Shown here piece after piece: positions 7,148-36,038 of a stretch of 47,124 bases of DNA (position 1 is its first letter; the number at the start of each line of letters is the position of its first letter). Source of the stretch: Rickettsiales bacterium. Lineage in GTDB: Bacteria > Pseudomonadota > Alphaproteobacteria > Rickettsiales > JALZUV01. Location of the stretch: assembly GCA_029252805.1 (NCBI GenBank), contig JAQXAR010000006.1:1-47124 (forward strand), given 5' to 3'. The translations under genes and the position numbers were made by a program. The notes under the pieces were generated by a model, which was given only the letters and a program-made list of their open reading frames with translations, made no database searches and was not told the DNA's origin.

Positions 7148-8674
7148 ATGCCCCCATCATCTTCTGTAATATCTATTTTTACACATCAATGTGCTCCAGA
7201 CCTTTCGGCAATTCGTTCTTTGCGCGAAATATTATCTGTAGAATTAAGTGATCATTTGGCTGAAAAGCAGATTGAAGCAATTCAGCTCGTCGTTTCAGAG
7301 TGGCTGACAAATTTGGCAGAGCATGCCTCACCGATGGCCGATAAAATTAGCATTGCCGCAAAGCGAGATCTAAAAGCAAACTCTATCACTATTACCGTAG
7401 CGGATGATGGGGAGTATTTTGCTGATTTTCACGAGAGGTTACAGCAATTACCCGATATGTTGAACGTTGAAACACTAGATATGGGCGGAATGGGCTTGTA
7501 TCTAATGCGACAGCATTTTCCAGCGGTGCGCTATGAGCATGAAGAGAAGCAGAATTGTTTGTCATTCACAGTCCTGCTACCCGTCTCGGAAATTTCCGCT
7601 ATTGCTACTATTTTAGTGGTAGAAGATACCTCTCCCATGGCGTTGTTAATTCGTAAAATGCTTGGTGCAGAATATGAAGTGATACTGGCCTATACCGGCC
7701 AACAGGCTAAAGATATCTTGCGGGCACAAAAAATTGATTTGATGCTATGCGATATCGGATTACCTGATATTGATGGTATCACTTTGCGCAAGCAAATGGA
7801 GCAGGATGTTAATTTGCGCGGGATTCCATTTGTGTTCCTGACCGCGAATGAAAAAAATGCGATTGAACAGCAGGCCTATGATCTTGGGGTGGATGACTAT
7901 CTTCCCAAACCTGTGAAGCAAGATAAATTACTCAATACGGTACGGCGTATTTTGCAACGTAATCAGCAGCTAACCCATTCCATTGGTGAGAAATTGGACG
8001 CTGAAGCCACCGATCGTATGATACCTCGTTGCCCTGTGGAGGTAGGTGCTTACAGTACTGAATTACTCTTTAAAGAGGCCAGTGCTGGCGGAGGAGACAT
8101 GGTGCTGCATTTTACCCGCCCACAAGATGAGGTGATTATTATTGCCGATGTGACAGGGCACGGTAGCAAGGCAAAATATTTTGCTCACCTTTATGGCGGT
8201 TATTTATACGGATTGCTCAAGCATTTCAACTCCAATGAGTCACCAGAAATATTGATGGCACAGTTGAGCGACATGATTGATGCTGATTCCCATCTGGTTG
8301 GTAATTTCATCACGTGTCAGATCATCTCTATACAGCAAGGCAGGCTTTCGATTTGTAGTGCGGGGCATCCACCTCCCTTATTGCTTGATAAAACAGGTGC
8401 AAAACCTTTGCCTATAGAAGGAACGATGCCAGGGCTGTTGGCTGGAACAGCCTATGAACCGCATCTTCTTACCTTGCATAAAGACGAAGCTCTCCTGCTC
8501 TATAGTGATGGGTTGGTAGAAGGAAGTCGTGACTTGCAGGCGCAAGAACAGTTCGGTACATGGTTGAAAGAGCAATCGGCATCATTGTGCATGGATAGGC
8601 TGTGGGATGGCTATCTTCATCACTTTGGCGACTTGCTATATGATGATGTCACTGCTCTGATTATTCGCCCTTAA
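7148..8674 (+). CDS. Kinase-receiver-phosphatase fusion, SypE-like partner-switch controller
   Basis: A 508-residue protein with three domains in order. Residues 1-~145 are an RsbW/SpoIIAB-type ATP-binding serine kinase domain (N box EWLTNLAEHA with N55, TVADDGEYF, GGMGLYLM). Residues ~153-270 are a receiver (VVED, D202 in LCDIGLPDIDG, T232, K254 in LPKPV). Residues ~295-508 are a SpoIIE/PP2C phosphatase (GGDMV with D317, DVTGHG with D334, SAGHPPPLLL, LYSDGLVEG, YDDVTALII). All metal-binding aspartates expected for PP2C seem present. This order is that of Vibrio fischeri SypE, which phosphorylates and dephosphorylates the STAS protein SypA to control biofilm polysaccharide. A STAS protein is encoded at 13132, the likely target. 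A possible weak start context with eight As precedes the ATG. It overlaps the convergent nuclease-like gene by 14 bp. Confidence 0.88.
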   Translation: MPPSSSVISIFTHQCAPDLSAIRSLREILSVELSDHLAEKQIEAIQLVVSEWLTNLAEHASPMADKISIAAKRDLKANSITITVADDGEYFADFHERLQQLPDMLNVETLDMGGMGLYLMRQHFPAVRYEHEEKQNCLSFTVLLPVSEISAIATILVVEDTSPMALLIRKMLGAEYEVILAYTGQQAKDILRAQKIDLMLCDIGLPDIDGITLRKQMEQDVNLRGIPFVFLTANEKNAIEQQAYDLGVDDYLPKPVKQDKLLNTVRRILQRNQQLTHSIGEKLDAEATDRMIPRCPVEVGAYSTELLFKEASAGGGDMVLHFTRPQDEVIIIADVTGHGSKAKYFAHLYGGYLYGLLKHFNSNESPEILMAQLSDMIDADSHLVGNFITCQIISIQQGRLSICSAGHPPPLLLDKTGAKPLPIEGTMPGLLAGTAYEPHLLTLHKDEALLLYSDGLVEGSRDLQAQEQFGTWLKEQSASLCMDRLWDGYLHHFGDLLYDDVTALIIRP

Positions 8675-9671
8675 CCGTCTCGTCAGAGAATTGTAAGCGT
8701 GTGATAATAGGCAAGTGGTCTGAGCCATAATCTGGACCGATCGTTTGTGCCAACACATTGATAGAGGGGGTGGTAAGCAGATGATCAATCCGTAAGCCTG
8801 CCCAGAATGAGCGCTTGGTAAGGGGCGACCAACTAGGATTTAGCAGTTGCTCGGTTCCGTTATTTTCTAACCCGGAAATTGCCAATAATTTATTAAACCA
8901 GCGTGAATAAATGGTCACATTCATATCGCCAACCAATATTTTATGTTGCATGGGTGCATTGGCTATCTTTTTTGCGGCACCTATCAATAACTGATTTCGG
9001 TTCTGCCATGCTTGCTCATTTCTAGGGGCTTCGTTATGAACTGCAAATAGGTGGAATGGCATTTGTCCCTGAGAGGTTTGACCCACGAGTTCAATAAAAG
9101 CCCCTTTTTTTGCATGTCCTGCTTTTTCCAGCGGCAAACGACTGAACAAGCTGATATCCTTGTGATGGTAAACGAACGGGTAGGCGAAACTAAGCGGTGC
9201 AAGTGCTTCCTGATGCGTACTTGTGGCTTCTTGGAATACCAATATGTCATGCTCTAGATCTTCAAGCAGCCAGTTGACTAACTGCGGCACTCTGGGATTG
9301 CTAAAGAGCAAGTTATACTGAAACAGGCTGATTTCTTCGCCGCTGCATTGGGTGCAAGCTGCCTCTATATCAAAAGGCAATAATTGCGGCAATTGTCGGT
9401 GAATATGGTAACTCTGCAAGATCACAAATATCAATGCCATTGAGGCAAGCTTGCGCTGAGCCGTCAATAGGCTGAAGAGAAAAAATCCAACAAAAAACAA
9501 CAGCAAATGGAGTGCAAAATTATGCAACATGTCTGATATCCAGAATAAATCGCCAAAAATGGAGACAACATATAAGACTGCGCTGACAGCTAAACTGCCC
9601 CATAAGACCAGTTGTACGAGGTACATTCCCTGCTTAATGAGATTTGAAATATATATATTCAGCGCTGTCAT
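8661..9671 (-). CDS. Membrane-anchored endonuclease/exonuclease/phosphatase-family protein
   Basis: A 336-residue protein with about three N-terminal membrane segments (residues ~15-105) followed by an EEP hydrolase domain. Family motifs visible are QYNLLFSN, FQEA, GDMNVT, LRIDHLL and GSDHLPI, which together give the metal site and the catalytic DH. The active domain should face the periplasm, after a CTQC pair. Members cleave phosphodiesters in nucleic acids, lipids or sugars; the substrate here is unknown. I chose the ATG at 9671, which overlaps the preceding stop (TAATG), rather than an ATG 16 codons earlier. It is the last gene of EPS operon 1, so a role in lipid-carrier or polymer processing is possible. 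Confidence 0.82.
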   Translation of the reverse strand: MTALNIYISNLIKQGMYLVQLVLWGSLAVSAVLYVVSIFGDLFWISDMLHNFALHLLLFFVGFFLFSLLTAQRKLASMALIFVILQSYHIHRQLPQLLPFDIEAACTQCSGEEISLFQYNLLFSNPRVPQLVNWLLEDLEHDILVFQEATSTHQEALAPLSFAYPFVYHHKDISLFSRLPLEKAGHAKKGAFIELVGQTSQGQMPFHLFAVHNEAPRNEQAWQNRNQLLIGAAKKIANAPMQHKILVGDMNVTIYSRWFNKLLAISGLENNGTEQLLNPSWSPLTKRSFWAGLRIDHLLTTPSINVLAQTIGPDYGSDHLPIITRLQFSDETVKGE

Positions 9672-10423
9672 TATAACATTGCCTCGATATGTTGCAGCTT
9701 GGTGATAAGTCGTGTCCATAATGCCTCCATAAATGCGGGGTTTCGAGAAGAGTTTGTGGCTTGTTCGATTTCCACCGAAAGGCCAGGGTAATATTGGCGA
9801 TTGAGTACACAGCCGAGTAAAGCCGCCTGCGCGCTATTGAGATGTGCCATAGCTTGTATCAGTTGCTCCTGTGGCGTGTGTGCCGCTTGCACCACGAGCG
9901 CGCAGCCATCACAGCCAGCAGCTAATGCATCGGCTGGAATGCCTTGATAGCCAGGCACGCCCAGCGGCTCACAATCGAAGATAACGATCTCAAATTGCTC
10001 GAGTAATTGTTGAACCCATGCTTTGATGCCGTTGGGGTCGCGTAAATGCACCGGAGCAATGGGGTGATTCAAGCCATTCAAAATAGATAGGTTAATCTTT
10101 TCAAAATGGTGGATGGCATCATCGAGTGTGGATAATTCTCCATTCCACGGGGTTTCTATCACACCCAACCGCTCTCCAACACAAGGGTGACGTAGATTCG
10201 CATCTACCAGCAGAGTTCGTTTTCCGGCTGCTGCACTGCGCTTAGCCATAGAATAAGCAACAGTAGAAACTCCTTCACCGGCTGCGCTGGCGCTAATGCA
10301 TAAGCTGCGTACTCCACGAGCAATACTGGCATTAAAGAGGGGATCAGTCCCTACATAATGCACCGGTACGGCGATATCATCAGATGAGTGAGCCTGCTCC
10401 AAAGTTGGGGTAAGTTCTATCAT
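9671..10423 (-). CDS. BY-kinase/CpsD-like ATPase with an altered Walker A
   Basis: A 250-residue cytoplasmic P-loop protein of the CpsD/CapB (MinD-like) family that usually works with Wzz-type co-polymerases. Visible are Walker A (SASAAGEGVST, residues 44-54), Walker A' (LLVDANLRHP) and Walker B (IVIFDCEPLG). In place of the usual GEGKST the sequence has GEGVST, so the nucleotide-binding lysine is replaced by valine (codon GTT). The C-terminal tyrosine cluster of BY-kinases is also missing. It may be a catalytically dead partner of the Wzz-like protein. I start at the ATG at 10423, eight bases after GGGAGG, not at the longer frame to 10537, which would overlap the export gene. Confidence 0.78.
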   Translation of the reverse strand: MIELTPTLEQAHSSDDIAVPVHYVGTDPLFNASIARGVRSLCISASAAGEGVSTVAYSMAKRSAAAGKRTLLVDANLRHPCVGERLGVIETPWNGELSTLDDAIHHFEKINLSILNGLNHPIAPVHLRDPNGIKAWVQQLLEQFEIVIFDCEPLGVPGYQGIPADALAAGCDGCALVVQAAHTPQEQLIQAMAHLNSAQAALLGCVLNRQYYPGLSVEIEQATNSSRNPAFMEALWTRLITKLQHIEAML

Positions 10424-10424
10424 T

Positions 10425-12704
10425 TTATAATCCTCCCAGTAATGCGGGGATGGAGAGTAGTTGCACAATGTCACCCACTCCGCCCATAAATTGTTTCCAC
10501 TCGCTTTGCGCGATATTGGGTACATAAACAGTGTCACCTGCTTTCACGAGCGGTAGCGCGCTGAAGTCGCCGCTTTTGGCAAAAGAAACTAAATCGAACA
10601 TACGCGCCTGATCTTTCGAGTCGGAGAAATTTACCACGATTATTTTCTCTTGATAGGCCGCTCCGGTGGGGCCTCCTGCTTCGGCAAGTAAGTCCAAAAT
10701 GGTCATGCCATCTTCAAAGCGGTAGCGCCCAGGCTTGCGGATTTCACCCATCACGCGGATGCTATCTTCTTTAGATAGGTCCAACCAATTGGGATTACGT
10801 TCCGGCACGTAGATAACATCTTCAGTATGTAAATCGGGTAGCAGGCTTTCATCGCCTTTCTCAAAATAAAGCGTTAAATTCACATGGCGAATCTTGTTTT
10901 TGCCGTCGCGTTTGCGTTGGTTCACTCTGATGTTACGCATATCTGCACCCGCAGTGGGGCCGTTAGCGGCAGAAATAATATCCAAAAAGCTGAAATCAGG
11001 GTTGAAAGCATAGCGTCCTGGAGAGTTAACCTGACCAAAGATATAAATCGATGATTCTGGTGCCTGACGAATCCACTGTGATTTATTATCAGATGGATCA
11101 TTTGGAAGCTCTGGTACCATGACCACTGTCCCGCCTACAATCTGTGGCAACTGCTCGGCTTGATAACCATTCTTGATAGCACTTTCCACATCGAAACGTT
11201 GAGACTTTGATGAGCCATCATCTTGTGGAATCACAATTTCCAAATGTGCCATATCGGCCTGTAACTTAGGACCGCCAGCATGGCCGATCAAATCGAACAA
11301 GGTCATTTCATTGGACCATTCATAGCGTCCAGGCTTGTTAACAGCACCCAAAATTTGTACCGCTTTCTGCGGGGGTGTATTGAGCCAACTATTCTCATTC
11401 GAGCGAGTCTTATGGGGAATCAAAATAGCGTCGCCAGCAGTGACAGTAGGCACTGTGATACTTTTAGGGTCTTGTGTGAAAGCGAATAGGTCAAAGCTTT
11501 CTACCACGCCAGCAGGTCTGATGATTTGCAATTTCCGCGTATCGGCAAAGCGAGTAGGCCCACCCGCATTGGAAAGGATATGGAAAAACCCGATATCGCC
11601 CTGAATTTCAAATGCACCAGGTTTATGTACCTCGCCCATCACATAGACAGTGCGATTGCCTGTTTTGATGCCTTTTTCCTTTTGGGGTACAAAGATGATG
11701 TCTCCCGGTGCAATATCGGGCATAAATTTACGATCTGCCGTGTCCATGAATCGTTTCAGGTTGAAAGGATGTGGCACACCTTGATGAATGATCCGAATCT
11801 GCTCGGCGCCAGCATAGCGGGTAACACCACCGGCACGCATCAGCATATCAAACGCACTCGCGTCTTCTTTATAGGCAAAGGTGCCCGGGTTGTGGACTTC
11901 ACCCATAATTTGAATGGCTTCGGTTTCTTCTGAGGCATCTCCCTGTTCCATCAGAGTGCGAGCGTCAAATTCAATCTGTACATTACCCAATAACGGAGAA
12001 ACGGGCACAAAAATCACATCGCGTGAGACTAATGTTTCCAACAGACTGCTATCACCTGAATCAAGATAGGCTTTGTAATTAATTTTGATGGTTTTTCCAT
12101 CGCGCTGCAGTTGCACACGATCAAGCTGTGCGCCGGGCTTAAGCCCACCTGCCTTGGCAATAGCCGTTTGCAGGTTAGCTTCGAGTGGAAGAGTGACGGT
12201 ACCTGGTTTTTTCACATAACCTAATACCGTAACGATTAGGCCGCGTTTTTTCAATTGGAGGGTAAGTTGTTCTAGATCACGGAACATTTCACCTAATTTT
12301 TCGCGTAAAGATACCGTTGCATCGGCCATGGTTTGCCCTTCCAATGATATCTCGCCGATCTCCGGTAGCAGGATATGCCCAGCGCGGTTGACCTGAAATT
12401 CAGCATTGAAACCTTCTTCCCCCGGTAGTGCAATATAGAGAATATCGCCGGCCTGAATGATAAGTTCAGGAATCATCGCTTTTTCTGGTTCCGGAGGATC
12501 CTGTAATATTGCTGCTTCTATGATTTCTTTTGGTTCTACATCAACATTCTCTGGTATGATAATTGGATCGGTTTCGGCAGATTTCTGCTGCGTATGTTCG
12601 GCACTGACTGTTAAGGCATCACCATCTGTGCCTACAGCCGATGCAGAATGTGCTGGCGCTGTTGCCAATAAAAGAGAGAGAATGATGAGGCCTAAATATT
12701 GCAT
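10425..12704 (-). CDS. Polysaccharide export protein with six SLBB repeats (Wza-related)
   Basis: A 759-residue periplasmic/outer-membrane export protein. Residues 1-~23 form a signal peptide (LGLIILSLLLATAPAHSASA) without a lipobox. A Poly_export domain follows (~75-155: IQAGDILYIALPGEEGF ... GHILLPEIG). Then come six SLBB repeats, each marked by a [GA]-x-[VI]-x-x-PG pattern: VLGYVKKPG, IMGEVHNPG, VMGEVHKPG, ILGAVNKPG, IFGQVNSPG and VMGEIRKPG. Wza itself has far fewer SLBB units and is about half this length, so this is a long, multi-SLBB type that could span the periplasm. AGGAG precedes the ATG. It overlaps the upstream lipoprotein gene by 13 bp in operon 1. Confidence 0.9.
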   Translation of the reverse strand: MQYLGLIILSLLLATAPAHSASAVGTDGDALTVSAEHTQQKSAETDPIIIPENVDVEPKEIIEAAILQDPPEPEKAMIPELIIQAGDILYIALPGEEGFNAEFQVNRAGHILLPEIGEISLEGQTMADATVSLREKLGEMFRDLEQLTLQLKKRGLIVTVLGYVKKPGTVTLPLEANLQTAIAKAGGLKPGAQLDRVQLQRDGKTIKINYKAYLDSGDSSLLETLVSRDVIFVPVSPLLGNVQIEFDARTLMEQGDASEETEAIQIMGEVHNPGTFAYKEDASAFDMLMRAGGVTRYAGAEQIRIIHQGVPHPFNLKRFMDTADRKFMPDIAPGDIIFVPQKEKGIKTGNRTVYVMGEVHKPGAFEIQGDIGFFHILSNAGGPTRFADTRKLQIIRPAGVVESFDLFAFTQDPKSITVPTVTAGDAILIPHKTRSNENSWLNTPPQKAVQILGAVNKPGRYEWSNEMTLFDLIGHAGGPKLQADMAHLEIVIPQDDGSSKSQRFDVESAIKNGYQAEQLPQIVGGTVVMVPELPNDPSDNKSQWIRQAPESSIYIFGQVNSPGRYAFNPDFSFLDIISAANGPTAGADMRNIRVNQRKRDGKNKIRHVNLTLYFEKGDESLLPDLHTEDVIYVPERNPNWLDLSKEDSIRVMGEIRKPGRYRFEDGMTILDLLAEAGGPTGAAYQEKIIVVNFSDSKDQARMFDLVSFAKSGDFSALPLVKAGDTVYVPNIAQSEWKQFMGGVGDIVQLLSIPALLGGL

Positions 12705-13135
12705 TGGATTTTCTCCTGATGCTGGTTAAGGTCTAGTTCAATTTTTTCTTGTTTGATGAGGCGGGCTTGCAGTTTTTCCATCATACGATAGAGCTTTTGC
12801 ACTTCACGTTCGCCGTCCCAACCTAAACCCCCAGCGAATAGACGCAGCGTGCGGTTGCGTTGTTGTTCAATTAACCAAAGTTGGGCGGGATAATGCTCAT
12901 TGATTCCCTGCTGACGCAACTCTGCCAAACGATGGTCAATGCAGTTGATGGATTGTAGATTATCGCGCTGCCAACGTTGTTGACGAGAGTTGCTGGAATA
13001 ATGGTGAAAGCTGCTCGGATAGGCATTTGTATGCGTATAGCGTTGATGCTCCGCAAATCCGCCAGTACCGTGTGGTGGGAACTCCTGACAGGCCGCCAGC
13101 AAACTCAATAATGGAATAAAGAAAAACATTCTCAT
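12692..13135 (-). CDS. Small lipoprotein of EPS operon 1
   Basis: A 147-residue predicted lipoprotein. Its start MRMFFFIPLLSLLAACQEF has a clear lipobox LLAAC, giving a mature N-terminal cysteine at residue 16. The mature part is rich in His, Gln, Arg and Tyr, then becomes helical and charged (LRLFAGGLGWDGEREVQKLYRMMEKLQARLIKQEK). No known domain is recognised. The ATG overlaps the STAS gene stop (ATGA) and the gene overlaps the SLBB export gene, so it may be an outer-membrane lipoprotein partner of the exporter. That is inference from position. Confidence 0.7.
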   Translation of the reverse strand: MRMFFFIPLLSLLAACQEFPPHGTGGFAEHQRYTHTNAYPSSFHHYSSNSRQQRWQRDNLQSINCIDHRLAELRQQGINEHYPAQLWLIEQQRNRTLRLFAGGLGWDGEREVQKLYRMMEKLQARLIKQEKIELDLNQHQEKIQCNI

Positions 13136-13455
13136 GCGGCTTCCCCTTTTGTACTTTCCATGGAGATCGCTTTATCGATACGCAGCATTTTCATCAAATC
13201 TTCTGGCTGCCCCTGTACATCACGCAGTGCCATCTGGCGGTTTTCACTGCGCAGACGCTTAAAGGCATAAACGAGCAGGCCAATGCCAGAGGAGTCGAGA
13301 AAGCTGATTTGTGCCATATCCACTGTCAAATCTTTGGATTCTGTTTCGATAAATTGATCAATGACAGATTTAAGAGTTAAGGCTTCCTCCGAGTCTAGAC
13401 TTCCAGAAAGCGTTAAGATTGTTTGCTGGTCGTGTTGAATAAAGCAATGTGGCAT
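13132..13455 (-). CDS. STAS-domain protein, SypA-like anti-sigma-antagonist
   Basis: A 107-residue single STAS domain protein. The phospho-site loop is ISFLDSSGIGLLVY, with S55 and S56 in the D-S-S-G motif of SpoIIAA and SypA. In partner switching this serine is phosphorylated by an RsbW-like kinase and freed by a PP2C phosphatase. The fusion protein at 7148 has both activities, so the two proteins probably form a pair that controls EPS output. I start at the ATG at 13455 (MPHCFIQ), preceded by AAGGAGC; the open frame extends further upstream to 13542 but would overlap the sugar transferase. It has its own sigma-54 promoter at 13501-13516 inside operon 1. No cognate anti-sigma factor is seen in the window. 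Confidence 0.88.
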   Translation of the reverse strand: MPHCFIQHDQQTILTLSGSLDSEEALTLKSVIDQFIETESKDLTVDMAQISFLDSSGIGLLVYAFKRLRSENRQMALRDVQGQPEDLMKMLRIDKAISMESTKGEAA

Positions 13456-13525: not shown

Positions 13526-14170
13526 TTATTGGCCGCGACCATGCACCACGACGCTAATTGTCATCCATAAAATCGTGATATCGGCGCAAAATGCAGCCCA
13601 TGTACTGTGTAGCATTAGAGCATAGGCGTGGTCGTATCCAACCTTGTTTCGGACATCCTCAATTGTCTCGTCATACCCTTGTAAAACCTGCGCATATCCT
13701 GTAACTCCGGGCTTTATTCCATAGGTGCGATCAGCATAAAGTGGGATGGCTTTTTCTAGCTTCTGATAGAAGCCTGGACGCTCTGGACGAGGACCAACCA
13801 AAGACATCTCGCCTTTGAGTACATTGAGCAGTTGTGGCACTTCATCAAGCCGTGTTTTACGCAGAAAATTTCCCACTTTGGTAATACGAGGATCATTTTG
13901 GGAAGCCCAGCGAGCTCCTTCTCTCTCTGCATCGACAACCATCGTGCGAAACTTAATTACCATGAATAACTTTGTATGATCATGGCAACGCTCGCCAATG
14001 CGTAATTGACGGAAAAAGACGGGGCCGGGTGAGTCCAATTTAACCATCAAAGCAATGATAGGCACTAAAGGAAGCAGCAATATACTCCCTAGCAGAGAGC
14101 AAACGATATCCATTACACGTTTCATACAAAGAGTGGAAAAAGCAAGGTAAGCGTAATGTGAATGGTTCAT
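13526..14170 (-). CDS. Initiating sugar-1-phosphate transferase (bacterial sugar transferase family)
   Basis: A 214-residue membrane enzyme of the short polyisoprenyl-phosphate hexose-1-phosphate transferase type. It has one N-terminal hydrophobic segment ([22 protein letters not shown]) and then the family signatures [58 protein letters not shown] and [13 protein letters not shown]. It loads the first sugar phosphate on undecaprenyl phosphate on the inner face of the membrane. The length matches the PglC/WcaJ-C-terminal class. The ATG overlaps the preceding glycosyltransferase stop (ATGA). The sugar is not predictable. Confidence 0.92.
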
Positions 14171-15336: not shown

Positions 15337-16442
15337 GATACGACTTCTTTTGCCTTTGGCGCACAAAGTGATTGGTAATGGGAAACCATTCGTTCCAGAC
15401 TGAAATGATTCAGAATGAACGGTCGCGTTGATGTTGATGAGGTATGGTTTAAGCGCCGCTTAAAGGCATCCAGTAGTCCAGGTAAATCATTCGAAGTGAA
15501 TAGTGTGCCAGCTTCGGGGGCAATAGCTTCTCGACAACTTCCCACGTTACTGGCAATCACCGGAACTCCCGTAGCCTGTGCTTCCAGCAGCGATAGCGGT
15601 AGCCCTTCCTGTAGCGAAGGAAGGCAAAACAGGTCCAATGCTTGATAGAAAGAAACCATATCACTGACATGCCCAAGGAAATGCACTTGGTCGGCAACAT
15701 CTAGCACCGTGGCTTGATGCTTGAGTGATTCTTCTATACTACCACTTCCTGCGAGGGCAAGGTGGCATTCTTTAGGAAGTTGGCGCAGTGCTTGTAGCAG
15801 AAGTACGTGATTTTTGACTGGCTCTAACCGAGCGGCACAGCCAATTAACGTCGCTTTTCTAGGCAAGCGAAACATCTTGCGTGCCTTCTGTTTATCACCG
15901 GGAATAAAACGTGCCGTATCAATACCATTCATAATGATTTGGCTGTTGAGGAAGGGATAAAATACGTGCAGTTCATCCGCCACATGCTTACTATCGGCTA
16001 CGACCTTCGGACGTAGCAATCGTAACAGTAGCTTCTGAAGACGGCGCGTGGGTGCATGGTGCAAGTGCCAACTATCATGCTCGGTGTGGATCAGCGTTTT
16101 AATACCCGCTAGCCGAGCAGCAAAACCGCCATAGAGCAGAGGGCCTATATGATGCGTATGCACGTTACTTACTTTCCGTCGACCTAGGAACCGGGCCAGC
16201 TTGAGAGTGGTCAGTAGGTGTATTCCTGGTGGTTTCTCCAGAAAGGTGAGCTGATCTGCATATTCGCGTAATTGTGGCCAATGCTGAAATGCTTCTTCGG
16301 CACTTCCTTCCAGACTGACCAGATGCATGAGATGTGTGCCATTCTGACTGCGTAAGAGCTCTAACGCTAGCATTTCGATGCCGCCGAGACGCAGATGTTG
16401 AACAATTTGTACGGTTAGCGGTAACGGTGAGTTCTGATCCAT
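15333..16442 (-). CDS. GT4 glycosyltransferase
   Basis: A 369-residue GT-B glycosyltransferase. It starts [22 protein letters not shown], typical of XrtA-type and other EPS-locus GT4 enzymes. The donor site is shown by [28 protein letters not shown] and [30 protein letters not shown]-like sequence (E-x7-E). I start at the ATG at 16442 because AAAGGAAC precedes it; the longer frame to 16550 lacks a site and overlaps the co-polymerase further. It overlaps the Wzz-like gene by 28 bp. It adds one sugar of the repeat unit; donor unknown. Confidence 0.87.
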   Translation of the reverse strand: [369 protein letters not shown]

Positions 16443-18046
16443 GAGAATGTTCCTTTCACGTAATGGTTTAGCTTGTGAGTTGGAATACGAGTTGCACTCT
16501 TTATCCAGTCTCTTACATTTCCGGACTGACTTCTTAAGGAGATGAAACATCTTTTGAAACGCCCCGGAGTGGCTGCAGTCTTTTCCAAATCAAATAGATG
16601 GATGGCTGGCTGAGGAGCCAAATTCATTAATACTGGTGCCCCTGCCAATTCTGCTAACTGATAGGGATAGCGAATCGTTGTATCGGCGGCATTTACCATG
16701 GCAGCCAGTGCACACCCCATCATTAATCCACCTAATGTGCCAATGATGGCAAATACGAATAATGGGGGCGTAATACGCTTGGGTGGCTGGAATGGTCGGT
16801 CGATAATTTTGACCCGTGTGGGTACCTCGAATTTGCTCAAATCTCCCGTGACACGAGCCATTTCGCTGCGGCGCATCATGTTCGTGTGCAATTCACGATG
16901 CACGGAGGCTTTGCGTTCCAGCCCCAATAGTTGGCGTTCTACTCCTCCAAAATTATGGACTTTCTCCTGTAATTCTTTTTCTGCCTGCTCCAGCACGATG
17001 ATTTCTTCACGCAGGCTGGTAATGCGAGTGTGAGCCAGATCCATTTGCTCCATTTGCGATACGAGTAACGGTTGAGATTTATCGTTATCAACCGTGATAT
17101 TCCAGACATGGTTGGTGCTAGCGACTTGTACTGCTTGATCCAATTGTGTCACATCCATTTCCAGCATACGATTACGTTCTTCCTGCAAGCGTTTTAAGGT
17201 GCGTTGCACTGCTTTTACCTTGCTATGCGCGCGGGTATAGCGTGCGCGCAATAGGGCCAGTTCACTGCTATAATGGATGATCTGTTCTTCCAGTTTTCCA
17301 ATGATCGGGTTCGTCTGTACTAACCTTCCTTCCAGTGACTCTGCCGCACCTTCCGCTCCTGATAGCAAGCTGCGTTTTTCAGCTAGATCGGTTTGAATTT
17401 TTGCCAATCTTCCCACATTAGAGGCATGCAGCACGGGTAATTCCTGTGAATGTTCAGATTTAAACTCTGCAAGTGCATTTTCTGCTTCTGTTAGGGTTTT
17501 TTGACTTTTTTTCATTTCTTCCTTCAGGAATTTTTCGGAGTTGCTGAGTGATGTCCAGGCCGGAGTCAGCACTTTTTCGATAAAACGGCGAGCAACGGCA
17601 TCTAATGTAATATTCATCGTTTCTGGATCCGTGTGGCGCACGCTGATTGTCACCAAATCATCTCCATCTAACGTTGCTTTCAATGTGGAGGAAACACGCT
17701 CCACTTCTCTGGCAATATCTTGTGGATCAGCATCTTCAGTAATAATACCTAAATCGGTCAGCACATTCACAAGCATATGGCGGCTATGCAGCAGAGCGTT
17801 GAGTGATTCCATTCGTTCCTTTAATCCGGTGCTGATAGAAATATCATCCATGAATGGGTTAATGCGAGAAGGCTCCTGAAATAGGATAGTTGTTTGCATT
17901 TCGTAGGTTTTGGGTAATATAAGCCCTACAATCAGAGCTAGTATTGGCATAATCAGCATGGGCCGGATAATCAGTTTCCGGCACCGCCAAGCGACTTCCA
18001 AAATGCGGTAGATAACACGTTCTACAATGATGGTATGATGTGTCAT
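16415..18046 (-). CDS. Wzz/GumC-like polysaccharide co-polymerase
   Basis: A 543-residue inner-membrane protein of the chain-length determinant class. It has TM1 near residues 28-47 (LIIRPMLIMPILALIVGLIL), a long periplasmic coiled-coil part (~150-395), and TM2 near 425-450 (PPLFVFAIIGTLGGLMMGCAL), with a proline-rich approach (DRPFQPPKR) typical of the family. The cytoplasmic tail of ~90 residues has no kinase domain; a separate CpsD-like ATPase is encoded at 9671. It should set chain length together with the SLBB exporter. The ATG overlaps the preceding lipoprotein stop (ATGA at 18043-18046). Confidence 0.87.
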   Translation of the reverse strand: MTHHTIIVERVIYRILEVAWRCRKLIIRPMLIMPILALIVGLILPKTYEMQTTILFQEPSRINPFMDDISISTGLKERMESLNALLHSRHMLVNVLTDLGIITEDADPQDIAREVERVSSTLKATLDGDDLVTISVRHTDPETMNITLDAVARRFIEKVLTPAWTSLSNSEKFLKEEMKKSQKTLTEAENALAEFKSEHSQELPVLHASNVGRLAKIQTDLAEKRSLLSGAEGAAESLEGRLVQTNPIIGKLEEQIIHYSSELALLRARYTRAHSKVKAVQRTLKRLQEERNRMLEMDVTQLDQAVQVASTNHVWNITVDNDKSQPLLVSQMEQMDLAHTRITSLREEIIVLEQAEKELQEKVHNFGGVERQLLGLERKASVHRELHTNMMRRSEMARVTGDLSKFEVPTRVKIIDRPFQPPKRITPPLFVFAIIGTLGGLMMGCALAAMVNAADTTIRYPYQLAELAGAPVLMNLAPQPAIHLFDLEKTAATPGRFKRCFISLRSQSGNVRDWIKSATRIPTHKLNHYVKGTFSWIRTHRYR

Positions 18047-21992: not shown

Positions 21993-22008
21993 AGCAATGC
22001 TCGTGCCA
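21993..22008 (-). promoter_or_regulatory. Sigma-54 promoter of glmS/EPS operon 1
   Basis: On the minus strand TGGCACGAGCATTGCT is a full match to the sigma-54 consensus TGGCACG-N4-TTGCW with GG-N10-GC spacing. The start would lie near 21983, about 30 nt before the glmS ATG, with a GGAG-type site (AAAGGAGTTAGTT) before the ATG. Confidence 0.88.
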
Positions 22009-23248: not shown

Positions 23249-24703
23249 CTATTGGGTTAATGGTGTGAAAGTAGGGGTAATGGGTTGCCTTTCTGAAAGA
23301 GGGTGTGCATTTACCACAGACTGTTTCAGCGTGTGTTGATGAATTCGTACGGCAGCAACCGTCAGTGCGAGTAAAATATAAACGGGCCAGGTGAAGCCTT
23401 GCGTTAGAAAAGTGCCAGAGACGATGAAGGATAAAATACCGGCCAATAACGCTTCCGATGTGATGGAAAGGCTGAGCGCCTGAGCATCTTCTCCTTTAGC
23501 ATGGAGAGTATCCATGTGCAATTTGCGTGCGGCACGCAATAATTGCCAAATCATCGCAACAAAAAGACCAAACCCTATAAATCCGGTTTCGGCCATTACG
23601 CCAAACCAAGTGGAGTGTACGGCATGGTTTTTATTGTCCCAAAAATCGGAATAGAAAAAGAAATTAGCATAAAAATTATCCAAACCAACGCCGGTTAACG
23701 GATTATAGAGTGCCATTTTGAAGGCAGCGAACCAGGCATATAGACGAATATTGGCTGACTCATCTAAGCCCGCTTCTTGGGCGCCACCGGAGATACGATC
23801 TGTAATTCCAGCCATGGTAAATAATGCTAATAAGGCGATGATTCCTCCGGTTATGAGTAGTGTTTTAGACCTGACTCGGAACCATGCTAGGACAAACATC
23901 ACGGTCGCCACTCCCAGCAGTCCACCTCGACTTTGCGTATAGAGGATAGCGAGTAAAATAATGCCAGTGCCAAAGAGCCCAACAAAGCGATCGACCCAGC
24001 GTACTCCCCAGCGCATCGCCAGTGTGATAGCAAAACTGAAAGGAAATAATAAGGTAAGTGCGAGGTCATTTGGGTCGCCCAGAATGCTGCCCAATTCACG
24101 GCTGATCGTCACTCGTGTACCTTCGACCAATCCAATTCCCTGTAGCTTATTTGCGATAGTCACTAATGCCACTGCTATACCTGCCAATACAATCAACCGG
24201 CTAACCCAGCGCAATTGGCGCGGTGTTTGTGTCAGGTAGGTGATAATCAGAACCATGATGGCGATTTTTACATAGATACCGCTCCAATAGGCAAAGGCGA
24301 GCCCACGGTTTTCGGCTAAAAGGGTCCCCATTGTGCAATAGAGGAAAAATAAGGAAAAGCAGGTCAGTTCCGGAGTCCAGAACAGCTTGATGCGCTTTTG
24401 TAGCAGTAATAGTCCAAAGCTGGAAATGGCTCCCAGTGAGAGTAATTTCGGGATATGAAATGGCATCAGGAGTGGAAAAGCCTCATGCAGCCGGAAGAAA
24501 GAGAATAGCACGAATCCCATCGCAAGGAGGAAGGGCAGTTGTAGCCCCATAATCATACTTAGCGGTAAAAGGAGTAATACCATCAGATAGAGAGGTTCAC
24601 CCGTGGCATAAAGCACTCCCAATGAGGCTAGGCACCAGAGCCACATTAATCCAGAGAGAATCGTCGAACTACCCCCAGAGATTACCGTATTAGGAGAGGT
24701 CAT
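23249..24703 (-). CDS. Wzy-like O-antigen/EPS polymerase or ligase
   Basis: A 484-residue integral membrane protein with about 11-12 helices. It has the Wzy_C/WaaL-type features: a loop arginine motif TQSRGGLLGV and, in the large periplasmic loop, ANIRLYAWFAAFKMALYNPLTGVGLDNF and NHAVHSTWFGVMAETGFIGFGL, whose histidine is typical. The enzyme joins undecaprenyl-linked repeat units in the periplasm or transfers glycan to an acceptor. In exosortase loci a related ligase class is common, so a protein-glycosylation role is an alternative. It overlaps the flippase gene by 14 bp and precedes the VWA gene by 9 bp. Confidence 0.85.
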   Translation of the reverse strand: MTSPNTVISGGSSTILSGLMWLWCLASLGVLYATGEPLYLMVLLLLPLSMIMGLQLPFLLAMGFVLFSFFRLHEAFPLLMPFHIPKLLSLGAISSFGLLLLQKRIKLFWTPELTCFSLFFLYCTMGTLLAENRGLAFAYWSGIYVKIAIMVLIITYLTQTPRQLRWVSRLIVLAGIAVALVTIANKLQGIGLVEGTRVTISRELGSILGDPNDLALTLLFPFSFAITLAMRWGVRWVDRFVGLFGTGIILLAILYTQSRGGLLGVATVMFVLAWFRVRSKTLLITGGIIALLALFTMAGITDRISGGAQEAGLDESANIRLYAWFAAFKMALYNPLTGVGLDNFYANFFFYSDFWDNKNHAVHSTWFGVMAETGFIGFGLFVAMIWQLLRAARKLHMDTLHAKGEDAQALSLSITSEALLAGILSFIVSGTFLTQGFTWPVYILLALTVAAVRIHQHTLKQSVVNAHPLSERQPITPTFTPLTQ

Positions 24704-27249: not shown

Positions 27250-28267
27250 AAGCCTCCTCATAATGTTTGATAATCATGGGTAATATTATCTCCGGTGAAT
27301 AGCGTTCCCGAATAGTTTTGCGCGCGCTATCACGCATCACCCTACGCGCCGCCTCACTCATCAACGACCAGTCCGTTACGGCCTCGGCCAACTGTTTCGG
27401 GTTGCCGGATTCTATCAAAAAACCATTCTGTTGCGTCTGGATAAGAGAGGGAAGTCCTCCCACTGCATAAGCCGCAACCGGAATACCATGCGCCATCGCC
27501 TCTAATGCTGCCATTGGCAACCCTTCGCGACGAGAAGGCATGATAAGCAAATCAATGTCCTTCCAATGTGGTTCCATCGAATCCACCTGACCGGCAAAAC
27601 TCAAATTGTCAGGAACCTCGAGCAACTGACGCATAGGACCGTCACCATAGATGGTAAATTGTTGTTCTGGGCATGATTTGGCTAAATCAGTAAAATGATC
27701 CGGCCCCTTTTCATGCGAGAGGCGCCCGACAAAGGCGATTTTCTTGCCAGTTCTGGAGATGATCTTTGGAACAGGAACAAAATTGGGAATGACACAGGTA
27801 TCATCTTGCAAACGTTCGGCGACCGTCGCACTCACTGCCAATATTGCTTGAGCTAGTGGCGCTGTTTGTTCATCCAGCCAACGATAGCATTGCACTCGAA
27901 AACTATTTGCATCACCACTGTGATAGGTGGAAATACAAGTCACTGTGTACCAACGCGCGGCAATTCGACCTAAAATTCCTGCTTTATAACCATGCGTATG
28001 AATTAAGGCCGGGCGATGTCGTAGGATTGCTTCTTTCCAGCCTCGACAAGGATGTGCGAGTGTCATGATTGAAATATCGGCCTTCTGTAATGCTTCGCGT
28101 AATGGATGTTTGCCGTAATCTCGCAAAAACACCACACGTGGCTGATAGCCGAACTGTAGCAATCCTGTTGCCAACTGATAGATATGACTTTCAATACCGC
28201 CGAAATGCTGCGAGTCCACAGCCAGCCAGATTTCAGTGCCTTCTTTTCGTAAATGCTTCATCGCCAA
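27224..28267 (-). CDS. GT4 glycosyltransferase
   Basis: A 347-residue GT-B glycosyltransferase. Acceptor side: VDSQHFGGIESHIYQLATGL. Donor side: IAFVGRLSHEKGPDHFTDLA, IYGDGPMRQLL, LSFAGQVDSM and MPSRREGLPMAALEAMAHGIPVAAYAVGG, with the E-x7-E motif intact. It overlaps the gene before it by 10 bp and the gene after it by 26 bp in operon 2. It should add one residue of the EPS repeat or of a glycan on the exported protein. Confidence 0.87.
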   Translation of the reverse strand: MAMKHLRKEGTEIWLAVDSQHFGGIESHIYQLATGLLQFGYQPRVVFLRDYGKHPLREALQKADISIMTLAHPCRGWKEAILRHRPALIHTHGYKAGILGRIAARWYTVTCISTYHSGDANSFRVQCYRWLDEQTAPLAQAILAVSATVAERLQDDTCVIPNFVPVPKIISRTGKKIAFVGRLSHEKGPDHFTDLAKSCPEQQFTIYGDGPMRQLLEVPDNLSFAGQVDSMEPHWKDIDLLIMPSRREGLPMAALEAMAHGIPVAAYAVGGLPSLIQTQQNGFLIESGNPKQLAEAVTDWSLMSEAARRVMRDSARKTIRERYSPEIILPMIIKHYEEAYAYRHYIR

Positions 28268-28743
28268 AACCCTTCAAATGTCACAGATGCTTCACTCACG
28301 CAATTTGATGGATCATGCAGAGCCAGTACGGTGGGGAACGGTATTTTCTCTATCCCTGCCATGCGCCATAAGGGTGCAATCCCTTCACGCCACAGATAAT
28401 ACCCACTGGGAAAACTACCCCCCTGATAATCTCGATAGAAAAAGACAGGTTTATGGTGATTTTTCTTTTGCACCATACTCACCGCTTCCGCACTCTTGAA
28501 CAGGGGAATGATCGTCAGTGACTCTCCGCAGCGTGGATGAGTAAAGTGATATGCAGAAAATACCCCACCAGAAGTAAGAACCTGTTGCGCGGCAAGGGAG
28601 AAGTCATGCAGCTCCATTGCTGCAAGCAACCGTTTTTGCACTTGCCGTTCCATGTCGGCTGGCGGTTCGTAATAGCGTTCCGCCTTACCCCACAGCGCGA
28701 TGCTGGCGAGTAGGATTACAATAATCCAATATCTCTTTTGCAT
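28258..28743 (-). CDS. Hypothetical exported protein beside the exosortase (position of EpsI)
   Basis: A 161-residue protein with an N-terminal signal anchor (YWIIVILLASIALWG) and a periplasmic part with two cysteines (HPRCGESL, DPSNCVSEA) that could form a disulfide. Motifs such as PVFFYRDYQGGSFPSGYYLW have no match I know. Exosortase operons often carry EpsI directly after the sortase, as a separate or fused domain; this gene overlaps the exosortase by 59 bp in the same place, but I do not see the EpsI signatures. It may be an unrelated or very divergent partner. Function unknown. Confidence 0.65.
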   Translation of the reverse strand: MQKRYWIIVILLASIALWGKAERYYEPPADMERQVQKRLLAAMELHDFSLAAQQVLTSGGVFSAYHFTHPRCGESLTIIPLFKSAEAVSMVQKKNHHKPVFFYRDYQGGSFPSGYYLWREGIAPLWRMAGIEKIPFPTVLALHDPSNCVSEASVTFEGFWR

Positions 28744-29536
28744 ACATCCTCCGAATAATAATGAACATGAGTAGAATAAGCGTCAGTTCGTACGCCGCTT
28801 TACCTGCTTCACCATGAAGCCAGTGATAGACTTCTTGTGATAAGGTTAGCATCGCCAGTCGCAGCCAATTGAGCGCTAACACCATTACCGTGAGTGTCAG
28901 CAGCACGGTAGCATCGCGCTGCTGCCAGCGATGAGACAGGCTTCGTGCCGCTACTAGCCAGCCCAACCAGATAATGGAAAGATTACTAACAGAAGAACAA
29001 GGTGCCAGGATCAAAATCGAGCGACCTGCTTGCGTGGTGATGAGGTTATCACTGCGCTCGGAAACAAACCCAGCCAAATTGGCAAGCGTTTGCGCCAACA
29101 ACGCGTCCAGACTCAAGACTGAAGAGGCAAAGGTTTTTAGTAATATCATGACCACCGGTTCACGTGCAGAAACGGCAAACAGAACCAGGAAACCGGCATA
29201 AATTTGTGAATGGCGACGATAGTGCCAGCCATACCAAAGTGCAAAGGCAGCTAAAACGATCCAACTCACCATCGCACTGGGAACACAGAATGCCATAAGA
29301 CAGAGAAGTATGATGGCCTTATCGGTCATTGTAAGGGAATGGTTACCTGTTGCCCCTATTATGAACCGCAATGCAACAATGATGGCGATCACCACAAATA
29401 AGTTTAGATTAAAGCCATGTAACAATGCATCAAATGCATTCTGTTCTGATAAGGACAGCAATATCGGACGGCTGAGTCCATTAAGACAGCCAATCAACGC
29501 AATCAATGCGAGCAGCCTATGACGAGATAACGGCAT
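28685..29536 (-). CDS. Exosortase/archaeosortase-family transpeptidase
   Basis: A 283-residue membrane protein with about eight helices. The predicted catalytic residues are Cys180 in LILAPCSSVSNLSIIWLG, Arg226 in LNWLRLAMLT, and His241 in WLHGEAGKAAYE, in the order C-R-H known for exosortases. The enzyme is thought to cut C-terminal sorting signals at the membrane and attach the protein elsewhere. It has no fused EpsI domain. The VWA protein at 22355 in the same operon carries a fitting signal. It overlaps the receiver gene by 20 bp. The exosortase subtype cannot be assigned by eye. Confidence 0.85.
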   Translation of the reverse strand: MPLSRHRLLALIALIGCLNGLSRPILLSLSEQNAFDALLHGFNLNLFVVIAIIVALRFIIGATGNHSLTMTDKAIILLCLMAFCVPSAMVSWIVLAAFALWYGWHYRRHSQIYAGFLVLFAVSAREPVVMILLKTFASSVLSLDALLAQTLANLAGFVSERSDNLITTQAGRSILILAPCSSVSNLSIIWLGWLVAARSLSHRWQQRDATVLLTLTVMVLALNWLRLAMLTLSQEVYHWLHGEAGKAAYELTLILLMFIIIRRMYAKEILDYCNPTRQHRAVG

Positions 29537-29936
29537 GATTCTCCAGCTCTTGTAATGTGATGTCTAATAGAGACTGACCGATGGGTTTTGACAAAAAAGC
29601 TGTCACGCTATTTTTGGGAAAACGATGGGCGAAATTTTGCATGACATGGGCAGAGGTGACTATGACGGGTATATTCTTTAATGCAGGCAAAGATTGCAGT
29701 TTTTCTATCACGGAAAATCCATCCATTTTCGGCAGCATAATATCCAAGAAAACAGCATGATAACGATTCTGTTGTAAGGTAGCTAATGCCTCTTCTCCGC
29801 TATTGACTACCTTTACGTGATGACCACGTTCACGCAGTAATGAAGAAAGATGTATAAAATGTGTCATATCATCTTCAACGATGAGTAACTTCAACTTTGA
29901 GCGGGATGTGCTGCGTGTTGTTTCGAACAGTTCCAT
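29517..29936 (-). CDS. Single-domain response regulator heading EPS operon 2
   Basis: A 139-residue receiver protein. It has a 15-residue basic lead, then LLIVEDDMTHF with both acidic residues, the phospho-acceptor in VFLDIMLPKMDG, threonine/serine switch in IVTSAH, and the lysine in FLSKPI. No output domain is present. As first gene of the exosortase-Wzx-Wzy operon, behind a sigma-54-like promoter, it may relay phosphate from the kinases at 34-40 kb or act on a protein of the assembly machinery. It is likely part of the phosphorelay with the HPt at 35385. Confidence 0.88.
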   Translation of the reverse strand: MELFETTRSTSRSKLKLLIVEDDMTHFIHLSSLLRERGHHVKVVNSGEEALATLQQNRYHAVFLDIMLPKMDGFSVIEKLQSLPALKNIPVIVTSAHVMQNFAHRFPKNSVTAFLSKPIGQSLLDITLQELENHAVISS

Positions 29937-30193: not shown

Positions 30194-30209
30194 TGGCATC
30201 TCATTTGCT
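30194..30209 (+). promoter_or_regulatory. Sigma-54 promoter of ugd
   Basis: TGGCATCTCATTTGCT fits TGGCA-N6-TTTGCW with exact GG-N10-GC spacing. The start would be near 30220, 25 nt before the ATG, with AAAGGAG as ribosome site. Confidence 0.8.
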
Positions 30210-30244: not shown

Positions 30245-31684
30245 ATGAATTCAGCTTCACTCAAAATTACGGTTATCGGAACTGGCTATGTTGGCTTGGT
30301 TACCGGCTGTTGCTTGGCAGAAATTGGACATCAAGTCACCTGCATCGATACGGATAAAGAAAAAATTGCACAATTGCAGCAAGGCGTTCCCACCATTTAT
30401 GAGGATGGTATGGAAGCCCTGCTAAAGCGCAATATTGAGCGTGATACCCTTCGCTTTTCTTCCCATATGAAAAATTCTATACCCAATGCAGAAGTTGTAT
30501 TTTTGTGTGTAGGAACTCCACCCCGCAAAGATGGAGGAGCGGATTTATCCTATATTATCAATGCAGCAGAGGAGGTTGCTAAACATCTAAGCGGTTATAC
30601 TGTGATTGTGAATAAATCTACAGTTCCACCACGTACCGCTCTTTTGCTGGAGCGTAAGATCTATGCTGCCAAAGGTGACATAGACGTAGATGTTGTTTCT
30701 AACCCGGAGTTTTTGCGAGAAGGCTCTGCCATCAAGGATTTCATGCGAGCAGAGCGCATTGTGGTGGGCAGTGATAGTCAACAAGCCATGCAAACCATGA
30801 AGTGGGTCTATGAGAGCTTGATCGGCAATCATGTTCCCTTTGTAGAAACCGATACCGTGAGCGCTGAATTAATTAAATATGCTGCCAATGGGCTACTTGC
30901 TACAAAAATTTGTTTTGCGAATGAGCTTGCAGACTTATCGGAGAAACTTGGTGGTAACATGGACGATATTAAACAAGGAATCGGTTTAGATAGCCGTATC
31001 GGTCAGCAATTCCTTAATCCTGGGCCAGGGTTTGGGGGGGCTTGCTTCCCCAAAGATGCGAAGGCACTGGTTCATATTGGTAATCATTTTTGTGCCCCGA
31101 TGACGGTGATGCAGAGTGTGCTGGTCAGTAATGAAGCTCGTCACGAGCGAATCATGCGTCGTATCCGCAAACTGACTGGAGGTCTTGCGGGGCAACATAT
31201 TGCAGTGCTTGGCTTGGCATTTAAGGCGGGCACCGATGATATGCGTGAAAGCCCTGCTGCAGAACTTGTAAGAGCACTTCATCAGGAAAAGGTCAATGTT
31301 ATTGTGTATGACCCACAAGCCATGGACGGAGAAAAAGCCCAATTGCCTGATTCTGTCCATTGTGCGGAAAGTGCCTATAGTGCGGTGGAAGGCGCTGATA
31401 TGGTGATTATTGCCACAGAATGGTCAGAGTTTATCGAGTTGGATTTAGATAAAATAGAAATAGCGATGCGCCAGCCGCTCATGTTGGATTTGCGCAATAT
31501 TTATGATCTTCAGAAAATGAAAGAATCCAATATTATCTATCATTCACTGGGTCGACCATCGGTGAATGAAGACAGGCAAGCTGAGGTTATCTCTTTTGTC
31601 AATAAGGCACCCATACAGGGCGCCGCTGGGACTTTTTTGGCAATGCTGCTCGTTATTCTGGCAAGTGAATGGTTCTATATTTAA
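30245..31684 (+). CDS. ugd: UDP-glucose 6-dehydrogenase with hydrophobic C-terminal tail
   Basis: A 479-residue UDP-glucose dehydrogenase that makes UDP-glucuronate from UDP-glucose with two NAD. The Rossmann start is ITVIGTGYVGLVTGCCLAEIGH. Other signatures are LCVGTPPRKDGGADLSYI, NKSTVPPRT, SNPEFLREGSAIKDF, LIKYAANGLLATKI, and the catalytic cysteine in GPGFGGACFPKDAKAL, then LAFKAGTDDMRESPA. Usual enzymes end near the SLGRP point; here about 40 residues follow and end in GAAGTFLAMLLVILASEWFYI, a probable membrane tail. It is transcribed from a sigma-54 promoter, opposite to the EPS operons, and is followed by a receiver gene 14 bp downstream. It implies uronic acid in the polymer. Confidence 0.94.
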   Translation: MNSASLKITVIGTGYVGLVTGCCLAEIGHQVTCIDTDKEKIAQLQQGVPTIYEDGMEALLKRNIERDTLRFSSHMKNSIPNAEVVFLCVGTPPRKDGGADLSYIINAAEEVAKHLSGYTVIVNKSTVPPRTALLLERKIYAAKGDIDVDVVSNPEFLREGSAIKDFMRAERIVVGSDSQQAMQTMKWVYESLIGNHVPFVETDTVSAELIKYAANGLLATKICFANELADLSEKLGGNMDDIKQGIGLDSRIGQQFLNPGPGFGGACFPKDAKALVHIGNHFCAPMTVMQSVLVSNEARHERIMRRIRKLTGGLAGQHIAVLGLAFKAGTDDMRESPAAELVRALHQEKVNVIVYDPQAMDGEKAQLPDSVHCAESAYSAVEGADMVIIATEWSEFIELDLDKIEIAMRQPLMLDLRNIYDLQKMKESNIIYHSLGRPSVNEDRQAEVISFVNKAPIQGAAGTFLAMLLVILASEWFYI

Positions 31685-31698
31685 TCGGGAGAGAAACA

Positions 31699-35151: not shown

Positions 35152-35190
35152 TTTCTTATCTTTCTTGTTAATGTCCTCTGAAAAGAACAT

Positions 35191-35206: not shown

Positions 35207-35232
35207 TTAAGAAGTGCCTGTAAAAAGTAGAA

Positions 35233-35326
35233 ATTCTCTTATTTTTCGCAATAAAGGTACCATTTTGGGAATATTATTCTCGGTGCGGGAAGAAATAAGA
35301 AAAATTGAGATAAAAAATAAGAGAAT
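35233..35326. repeat. Inverted repeat enclosing an activator-type site
   Basis: Perfect 14-bp arms ATTCTCTTATTTTT (35233-35246) and AAAAATAAGAGAAT (35313-35326) enclose 66 bp. Inside at 35257-35271 is GTACCATTTTGGGAA, 12 of 15 matches to the site before glmS. The structure sits between two divergent sigma-54 promoters. Confidence 0.75.
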
Positions 35327-35342
35327 CGCTGTGTTCTCTGCA

Positions 35343-35358
35343 TGGCATGGCAATTGCC
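35343..35358 (+). promoter_or_regulatory. Sigma-54 promoter of the HPt gene
   Basis: TGGCATGGCAATTGCC has GG-N10-GC spacing with TTGC. The start would be near 35369, which rules out the longer open frame that begins at 35214 and points to the ATG at 35382 or 35385. Confidence 0.72.
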
Positions 35359-35384
35359 TGTATAGTATTATGAAGAAAATTATG

Positions 35385-35904: not shown

Positions 35905-35919
35905 TTCCCTAAATGGGAG
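35905..35919. promoter_or_regulatory. Putative activator site (UAS) for the paralogous receivers
   Basis: TTCCCTAAATGGGAG, on the minus strand CTCCCATTTAGGGAA, matches 13 of 15 bases of the glmS site. CTCCCA also occurs at 35885-35890. It lies about 55-70 bp upstream of the -24 element at 35973. Confidence 0.6.
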
Positions 35920-35972
35920 GAAAGCATTCACATAAACCAATCAAGCTATTGATAAATATATATAATGATATA

Positions 35973-35988: not shown

Positions 35989-36038
35989 AAGTATCACCTA
36001 GAAACGAAATACTTCTAACGGAAAGAAAGAGGAAAAAG

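Follow-up and report, generated by a model that had tools for sequence, protein, structure and literature searches.

A SypE/SypA-like switch as a likely post-translational lock in an exosortase-type exopolysaccharide locus of a Rickettsiales bacterium

What does a partner-switching pair control when it lies in an exopolysaccharide (EPS) locus? The question is raised by a 47,124-nucleotide stretch of a Rickettsiales genome (assembly GCA_029252805.1, contig JAQXAR010000006.1, positions 1 to 47,124; here called the window), which encodes a fusion protein resembling SypE and a single-domain STAS protein resembling SypA, two proteins of Vibrio fischeri. An earlier note on this DNA had read the two as a SypE/SypA-like switch, and this reading was supported by domain order, catalytic residues, gene linkage, a serine that tracks the fusion, and agreement with the published mutational map of SypA. 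We consider it likely that a Syp-type module drives the exosortase-type EPS locus and that the pair serves as a SypE/SypA-type post-translational lock, not as a sigma-factor switch.

In Pfam searches, the SypE-like protein comprised an HATPase_c_2 kinase domain (amino acids [aa] 17-141; 59.7 bits versus a cut-off of 27.4), a Response_reg receiver (aa 155-265; 83.6 bits, above cut-off), and a SpoIIE/PP2C phosphatase domain (aa 329-507; 89.1 bits, above cut-off). The best PDB match of the N-terminal domain was RsbW (6m36). Alignment of 11 full-length homologs showed invariant residues in all three domains: E51, N55, H59, and D86 in the kinase, D202 (the receiver aspartate) and K254 in the receiver, and D317, D334, D454, and D499 in the phosphatase. 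The kinase-REC-PP2C order, required of a SypE-type response regulator, is that of SypE in V. fischeri, and the kinase asparagine N55 corresponds to N52 of SypE (PMC3610818). The domain assignment and order given in the earlier note are thus upheld by Pfam and by the invariant catalytic residues; the Pfam architecture did not show the REC-PP2C-kinase order of HsbR and CrsR.

The STAS protein scored 66.8 bits with the Pfam STAS model and was also above the cut-off of the anti-sigma-antagonist model TIGR00377; its PDB relatives were TM1442, SpoIIAA, and RsbV. Like SypA, it consists of a single domain, and its predicted phospho-site, S55 in the motif D54-S55-S56-G57 (DSSG), is one residue off S56 of SypA (PMC4517449). 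The DSSG site, the position inside an EPS operon, and the start at 13455 all agree with the earlier note; that start has a ribosome site (AAAGGAG) ahead of it, which favors it over the longer open reading frame starting at 13542, which has none. The stop codon of the STAS gene and the next gene, encoding a small lipoprotein-like protein, share 4 bp, and the STAS gene heads a lipoprotein/export/BY-kinase-like cassette, as expected of a SypA-type effector. Two other identities were rejected for the STAS protein: an MlaB lipid-transport protein (NF033618, 30 bits versus a cut-off of 90) and a stressosome component, with no RsbR/RsbS-like multi-STAS set and just two STAS matches genome-wide.

The genome holding the window (2.19 Mb, 99.2% complete) offers few other partners. 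Profile searches found one SpoIIE/PP2C protein, the fusion itself, and the two STAS matches were the 107-aa protein and the tail of a SulP transporter. The fusion was also the one strong HATPase_c_2 match (63 bits); the next best scored 32 bits, and the weaker matches comprised two histidine kinases, one GyrB, and one that is the window's hybrid kinase (those at L006, L010, and L011 being judged on score and a long frame only). A scan of the genome's contigs with the full SypE-like protein gave matches to its receiver part only. The HATPase_c_2 search of the genome revealed no clear separate small RsbW-type anti-sigma kinase, the remaining matches being weak. With one PP2C protein, one single-domain STAS protein, and one clear RsbW-type kinase genome-wide, the predicted kinase, phosphatase, and substrate therefore form a closed set of candidates.

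Full-length fusions were recovered from 5 of 385 genomes of the class, that of the window included, and further ones from one order, the phylum sample (G543), and a Plesiomonas plasmid, the only full-length match in the plasmid search with the SypE-like protein; plasmid searches with the export protein returned just two Plesiomonas records. The distribution of the fusion within the order is patchy, since, among 55 close relatives searched, the one same-genus genome (86% complete) had no PF07228 match and most of the others had shorter PP2C proteins of ~400 aa. Co-occurrence of the two genes, a check proposed in the earlier note, held wherever the fusion was full length: a STAS gene lay within 0 to 16 kb of the fusion in 11/11 full-length fusion loci and was immediately adjacent in six relatives (G161, G452, G431, G457, G459, and G449). 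Gene maps of these loci were made by homology-first gene selection. The Plesiomonas order (chain-length determinant, glycosyltransferase, GT2, sugar transferase, STAS, small protein, SLBB export, BY-kinase-like, SypE-like) is that of the window, except that the SypE-like gene lies inside the operon. In G161 and G452, the hybrid kinase, SypE-like, second STAS, and sigma-54 regulator genes form one run, which adjoins the STAS-lipoprotein-export-BY-kinase-like run. The second STAS paralog in this run (L049, 12623-12961; L067, 10519-10887), flanked by the SypE-like and sigma-54 regulator genes, carries DSAG and has no K-R pair. In G186, a REC-PP2C protein without the kinase is followed directly by a STAS gene.

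Of the 385 class genomes, 10 (that of the window among them) encoded the export protein of the window or a close homolog (50 to 55% identity, E <1e-200); these ten loci, together with those of Plesiomonas and G543 (the latter reached via the fusion), gave 12 EPS loci. A STAS gene preceded the export and BY-kinase-like genes in all 12. The fusion was detected in six and not in the other six, and its kinase domain was absent from the PP2C proteins of the six fusion-less genomes. STAS is thus the core of these loci and the fusion is optional, paralleling Vibrio, where most syp loci have sypA, while V. vulnificus and V. parahaemolyticus lack sypE (PMC4517449, PMC10120452). Because the STAS protein stays where the kinase and phosphatase are absent, we favor an action on EPS production over one on a sigma factor, in line with the direct role that the earlier note had proposed.

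The presence of the fusion was reflected in the STAS sequence. DSSG was kept in 6/6 STAS proteins from fusion-bearing EPS loci, while the phospho-serine was replaced by A, P, or T in 5/6 from fusion-less ones (DTAG, DASG, DTSG, DPSG, DASG, and, once, DSSG; P = 0.015, Fisher test over loci). Both second STAS copies likewise retained the serine, as did the STAS genes that neighbor fusions elsewhere. Since D54, S56, G57, and G59 remain conserved across EPS-locus STAS proteins, S55 is the labile position of the motif. A natural serine-to-alanine change would mimic SypA-S56A, which is active in V. fischeri (PMC4517449).

A second face of the STAS protein was conserved regardless of the fusion. Columns conserved in at least 11 of the 12 EPS-locus STAS proteins, computed before the SypA alanine scan was read, were D46, D54, S56, G57, G59, K66, R67, Q83, P84, and L91; D46, D54, K66, Q83, and P84 were invariant, and R67 was kept in 11. 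That scan reported five null residues, D47, D55, K67, R68, and Q84, with K67A and R68A stable but inactive and the D47, D55, and Q84 alanine mutants undetectable (PMC4517449). At an offset of +1 (S55 = SypA S56), D46, D54, K66, R67, and Q83 match all five. Canonical anti-sigma antagonists share the lysine yet have neither R67 nor Q83-P84, and the K-R pair is kept neither in the second STAS copies nor in Pel-linked STAS proteins.

The surrounding locus (Table 1) carries the further syp-locus trait of a hybrid kinase with an Hpt domain and a sigma-54 regulator. The earlier inventory was sound as far as it went, and it left out the SypF-like and SypG-like proteins and the sigma-54-type sites. In V. 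fischeri, SypF signals to SypG, acting on transcription, and to SypE, acting post-transcriptionally (PMC12369376). The SypG-like regulator has the GSFTGA form of the sigma-54 contact loop, and a homolog lies within or beside the locus in most relatives; SypF-like homologs adjoin the SypE-like gene in G161 and G452 and are nearby in G329 and G543. Perfect sigma-54 sites are expected by chance 0.05 times in the window (Markov model). Sites like the one ahead of STAS in the window lie upstream of this gene, at 23 to 45 bp, in G161, G452, G543, G150, and G264, and overall a sigma-54-type site precedes this gene in 6/13 loci examined. Homologs of the lipoprotein-like gene stand next to STAS in G161, G452, Plesiomonas, and G250, and weakly in G089. 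Calling this an exosortase EPS locus, as the earlier note did, is reasonable, although the exosortase itself is borderline. The export protein lies above the cut-off of TIGR03027, the XrtA/PEP-CTERM export model (188 versus 180 bits). After the probable exosortase lies a small protein without a Pfam match (28258-28743); because homologs of both genes occur in G329 and G150, the two are likely a divergent exosortase pair.

Table 1. Features of the window, with strand and basis of assignment
Feature	Position	Strand	Basis or remark
SypE-like protein, 508 aa	7148-8674	+	Pfam: RsbW-type kinase, receiver, PP2C phosphatase
BY-kinase-like protein without Walker A lysine, SypD position	9671-10537	-	Start codon uncertain
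SLBB-repeat polysaccharide export protein	10425-12704	-	Pfam SLBB/Poly_export; TIGR03027 above cut-off
Small lipoprotein-like gene, conserved cassette member	12692-13135	-	Homologs adjoin STAS in relatives
SypA-like single-domain STAS protein, 107 aa, predicted phospho-site S55	13132-13455	-	Pfam STAS, TIGR00377
Sigma-54 (-24/-12) promoter-like site, 45 bp ahead of STAS start codon	13501-13516	-	TGGCATGGCCGTTGCT, 1 mismatch
Initiating sugar transferase directly upstream of STAS	13526-14170	-	PF02397, 205.8 bits
Chain-length determinant	16415-18046	-	TIGR03007, 188.8 bits, below cut-off 278.85
Perfect sigma-54 (-24/-12) consensus before glmS, first gene of EPS operon 1	21993-22008	-	TGGCACGAGCATTGCT
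Wzy/O-antigen-ligase family protein of exosortase A systems	23249-24703	-	PF04932 above cut-off; TIGR03097, 128 bits, below cut-off 188
Probable exosortase	28685-29536	-	TIGR04178, 22.3 bits versus cut-off 23; Cys, Arg, His residues present
Sigma-54-type site, 35 bp before UDP-glucose dehydrogenase gene (30245)	30194-30209	+	TGGCATCTCATTTGCT, 1 mismatch
SypG-like sigma-54-dependent response regulator	32572-34011	-	REC, Sigma54_activat, HTH_8
SypF-like hybrid histidine kinase	37885-39690	-	HisKA, HATPase, REC, Hpt

How phosphate is passed on, which way the switch works, and what STAS targets are inferred from the V. fischeri precedent, in which unphosphorylated SypA is active and SypE acts below transcription (PMC3610818, PMC4517449). 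The SypF-like phosphorelay kinase would feed two response regulators, of which the SypG-like one would switch on the EPS operons and the STAS gene via sigma-54 promoters. With its receiver unphosphorylated, the SypE-like protein would use its RsbW-type domain to phosphorylate S55, locking the STAS protein off; once D202 is phosphorylated, the PP2C domain would take this phosphate off. The unphosphorylated STAS protein would be the active form; bound to a component of the EPS machinery by way of its K66-R67 helix, it would allow EPS to be made.

A classical partner switch, in which the kinase domain doubles as an anti-sigma factor and a sigma factor for EPS or stress genes is freed by the STAS protein, has been proposed for HsbR/HsbA and CrsR/CrsA with RpoS, to which the kinase domains of HsbR and CrsR bind (PMC6482189). 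The resemblance of the kinase domain to RsbW and of the STAS protein to SpoIIAA and TM1442 would suit such a switch; however, STAS persists in EPS loci without a detected fusion, mostly without the phospho-serine, the genome showed no other RsbW-type kinase, and the EPS promoters found look to be of the sigma-54 type, all of which makes it unlikely here. Sigma-54 is not known to be regulated by RsbW-type anti-sigma factors. Signaling by the STAS protein through a second-messenger enzyme instead of on the EPS machine has a precedent in HsbA and the diguanylate cyclase HsbD (PMC6482189), but is more doubtful still: no GGDEF or EAL domain was found among the window proteins scanned, and the one REC-GGDEF-like protein in the mapped loci lay near the fusion-less G089 locus. 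Least credible, and very improbable in our judgment, is that the fusion and STAS are unconnected neighbors, with STAS an EPS structural subunit that is not phospho-regulated here. Their opposite strands, the 4.5 kb between them, and the fusion-less half of the EPS loci would fit this, whereas the consistent linkage, the immediate adjacency in six relatives, the co-variation of serine and fusion, and their standing as the only partner candidates in the genome speak for a connection.

Several points nonetheless weigh against a Syp-type lock. The fusion-less G235 locus retains DSSG. On the export-protein (SLBB) tree, the fusion-less loci fall into three lineages (G180 and G089; G150, G264, and G250; G235), and the serine was lost in two of these, giving a lineage-level P of 0.083, of weak significance. 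Two of the lost-serine cases have threonine, which could still be phosphorylated, and threonine phosphorylation reportedly occurs in SiaABC, another such pathway (PMC7647112). The likeness to the V. fischeri Syp proteins was judged from domains, residues, and published positions. Finally, the statement of the earlier note that neither a sigma nor an anti-sigma factor is in view agrees with our finding that none was recognized among the window genes scanned, the genome's sigma factors not having been surveyed.

If the STAS protein acts on the EPS machinery, the BY-kinase-like protein deserves attention as its partner. Its Walker A lysine was missing in the window and in all homologs examined (GEGVST and variants; 12 other loci), and the window protein has no C-terminal tyrosine cluster, so that it is probably no active tyrosine kinase. 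Its gene comes after STAS in every EPS locus, and in G543 no SLBB gene lies between the two. SLBB export proteins should lie outside the cytoplasm, so a cytoplasmic STAS protein needs a different partner. The BY-kinase-like protein is the best candidate for the target by co-location, which is no proof of binding.

A different polymer setting was found in G431, G457, and G459, where the fusion/STAS pair, in convergent orientation, lies beside a PelF gene. PelF in G431 and G459 scored 468.5 bits with the NCBIfam PelF model (cut-off 100), and that in G457 had the same domain make-up by Pfam; the PelF-type genes (L044, 6884-8620; L068, 12176-13927; L069, 14031-15599) are 1.4 to 3.2 kb from the pair. 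The Pel-linked STAS proteins keep DSSG, and R-A replaces K-R. This arrangement suggests that the switch also controls Pel polysaccharide, in which case one switch might serve two polymers. A broader proposal, which we hold only tentatively and with more doubt than belief, is that several unrelated polysaccharide machines (exosortase EPS, Syp, and Pel) have a SypA-type STAS protein as a core effector, the helix that binds the target differing between these proteins (K-R in EPS loci, R-A by Pel), that SypE-like phosphorylation is an optional lock discarded with the serine in some lineages, and that the EPS target is the BY-kinase-like protein.

The Syp switch of V. fischeri reportedly controls a squid-colonizing biofilm, and in the syp gene order the STAS gene likewise precedes export and BY-kinase-like genes. 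A SypF-like hybrid kinase and a SypG-like sigma-54 regulator in the locus are also shared with syp (PMC12369376). In contrast to syp, the EPS machinery here is of the exosortase type, with an SLBB-repeat export protein and a Wzy/O-ligase-like protein; a small lipoprotein stands where syp has the OmpA-type SypB; the BY-kinase-like protein lacks the Walker A lysine; and the SypE-like gene lies outside the operon and convergent to it, whereas in syp it is part of the operon. The scv/syp-like loci described from 28 genera (Liu et al. 2022, PMC8941931) share the regulatory layout around the sigma-54 regulator and include two alphaproteobacterial genera, Elstera and Terasakiella; the main text of that paper names neither STAS nor exosortase, and scv of V. 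parahaemolyticus is without SypE and SypF. In HsbR-HsbA of Pseudomonas and CrsR-CrsA of Shewanella, kinase and PP2C domains likewise occur in a single response regulator that acts on a STAS protein, but the domain order differs and a sigma factor is among the targets (PMC6482189). The RsbW/RsbV/RsbU and SpoIIAB/SpoIIAA/SpoIIE systems of Bacillus share the domain families and phospho-serine motif and differ in having separate kinase and phosphatase proteins, control of a sigma factor, and a STAS protein without R67 and Q83-P84.

The switch type is already known, and, as a correction to the earlier note, Syp-like loci had been described outside Vibrio before (PMC8941931); linkage of the switch to exosortase and Pel loci was not found reported in the open literature. 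No paper combining exosortase with a STAS domain was found in the open-access literature (subscription papers lying outside this scope), and none linking Pel with STAS was among the 12 best-ranked open-access matches. As late as 2025, the way in which SypA promotes biofilm was described as unknown (PMC12826045). The loci described here are natural experiments in which effector residues are kept and the phospho-serine is lost where kinase and phosphatase are absent and, conversely, the serine is kept and the effector helix changed where the polymer system differs. Since they separate the regulatory face of STAS from its effector face and nominate one protein as target, the question of the SypA target becomes directly testable. 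They also suggest that the switch is a portable exopolysaccharide controller and not a Vibrio speciality.

Other genes of the window may bear on its inputs and history. A bacterial globin gene (39687-40055) shares 4 bp with the start of the SypF-like hybrid kinase gene. The arrangement is reminiscent of HnoX-HahK, the nitric oxide (NO)-sensing pair that acts upstream of Syp in V. fischeri, and the globin may be the sensor input. Receiver proteins and a stand-alone Hpt beside the EPS genes (29517-29936, 31669-32556, 34144-35190, 35214-35720, and 35913-36902) suggest a branched phosphorelay. At the left edge, a ParB/RepB-like gene and a large serine recombinase (203-2676) possibly mark the boundary of a mobile element.

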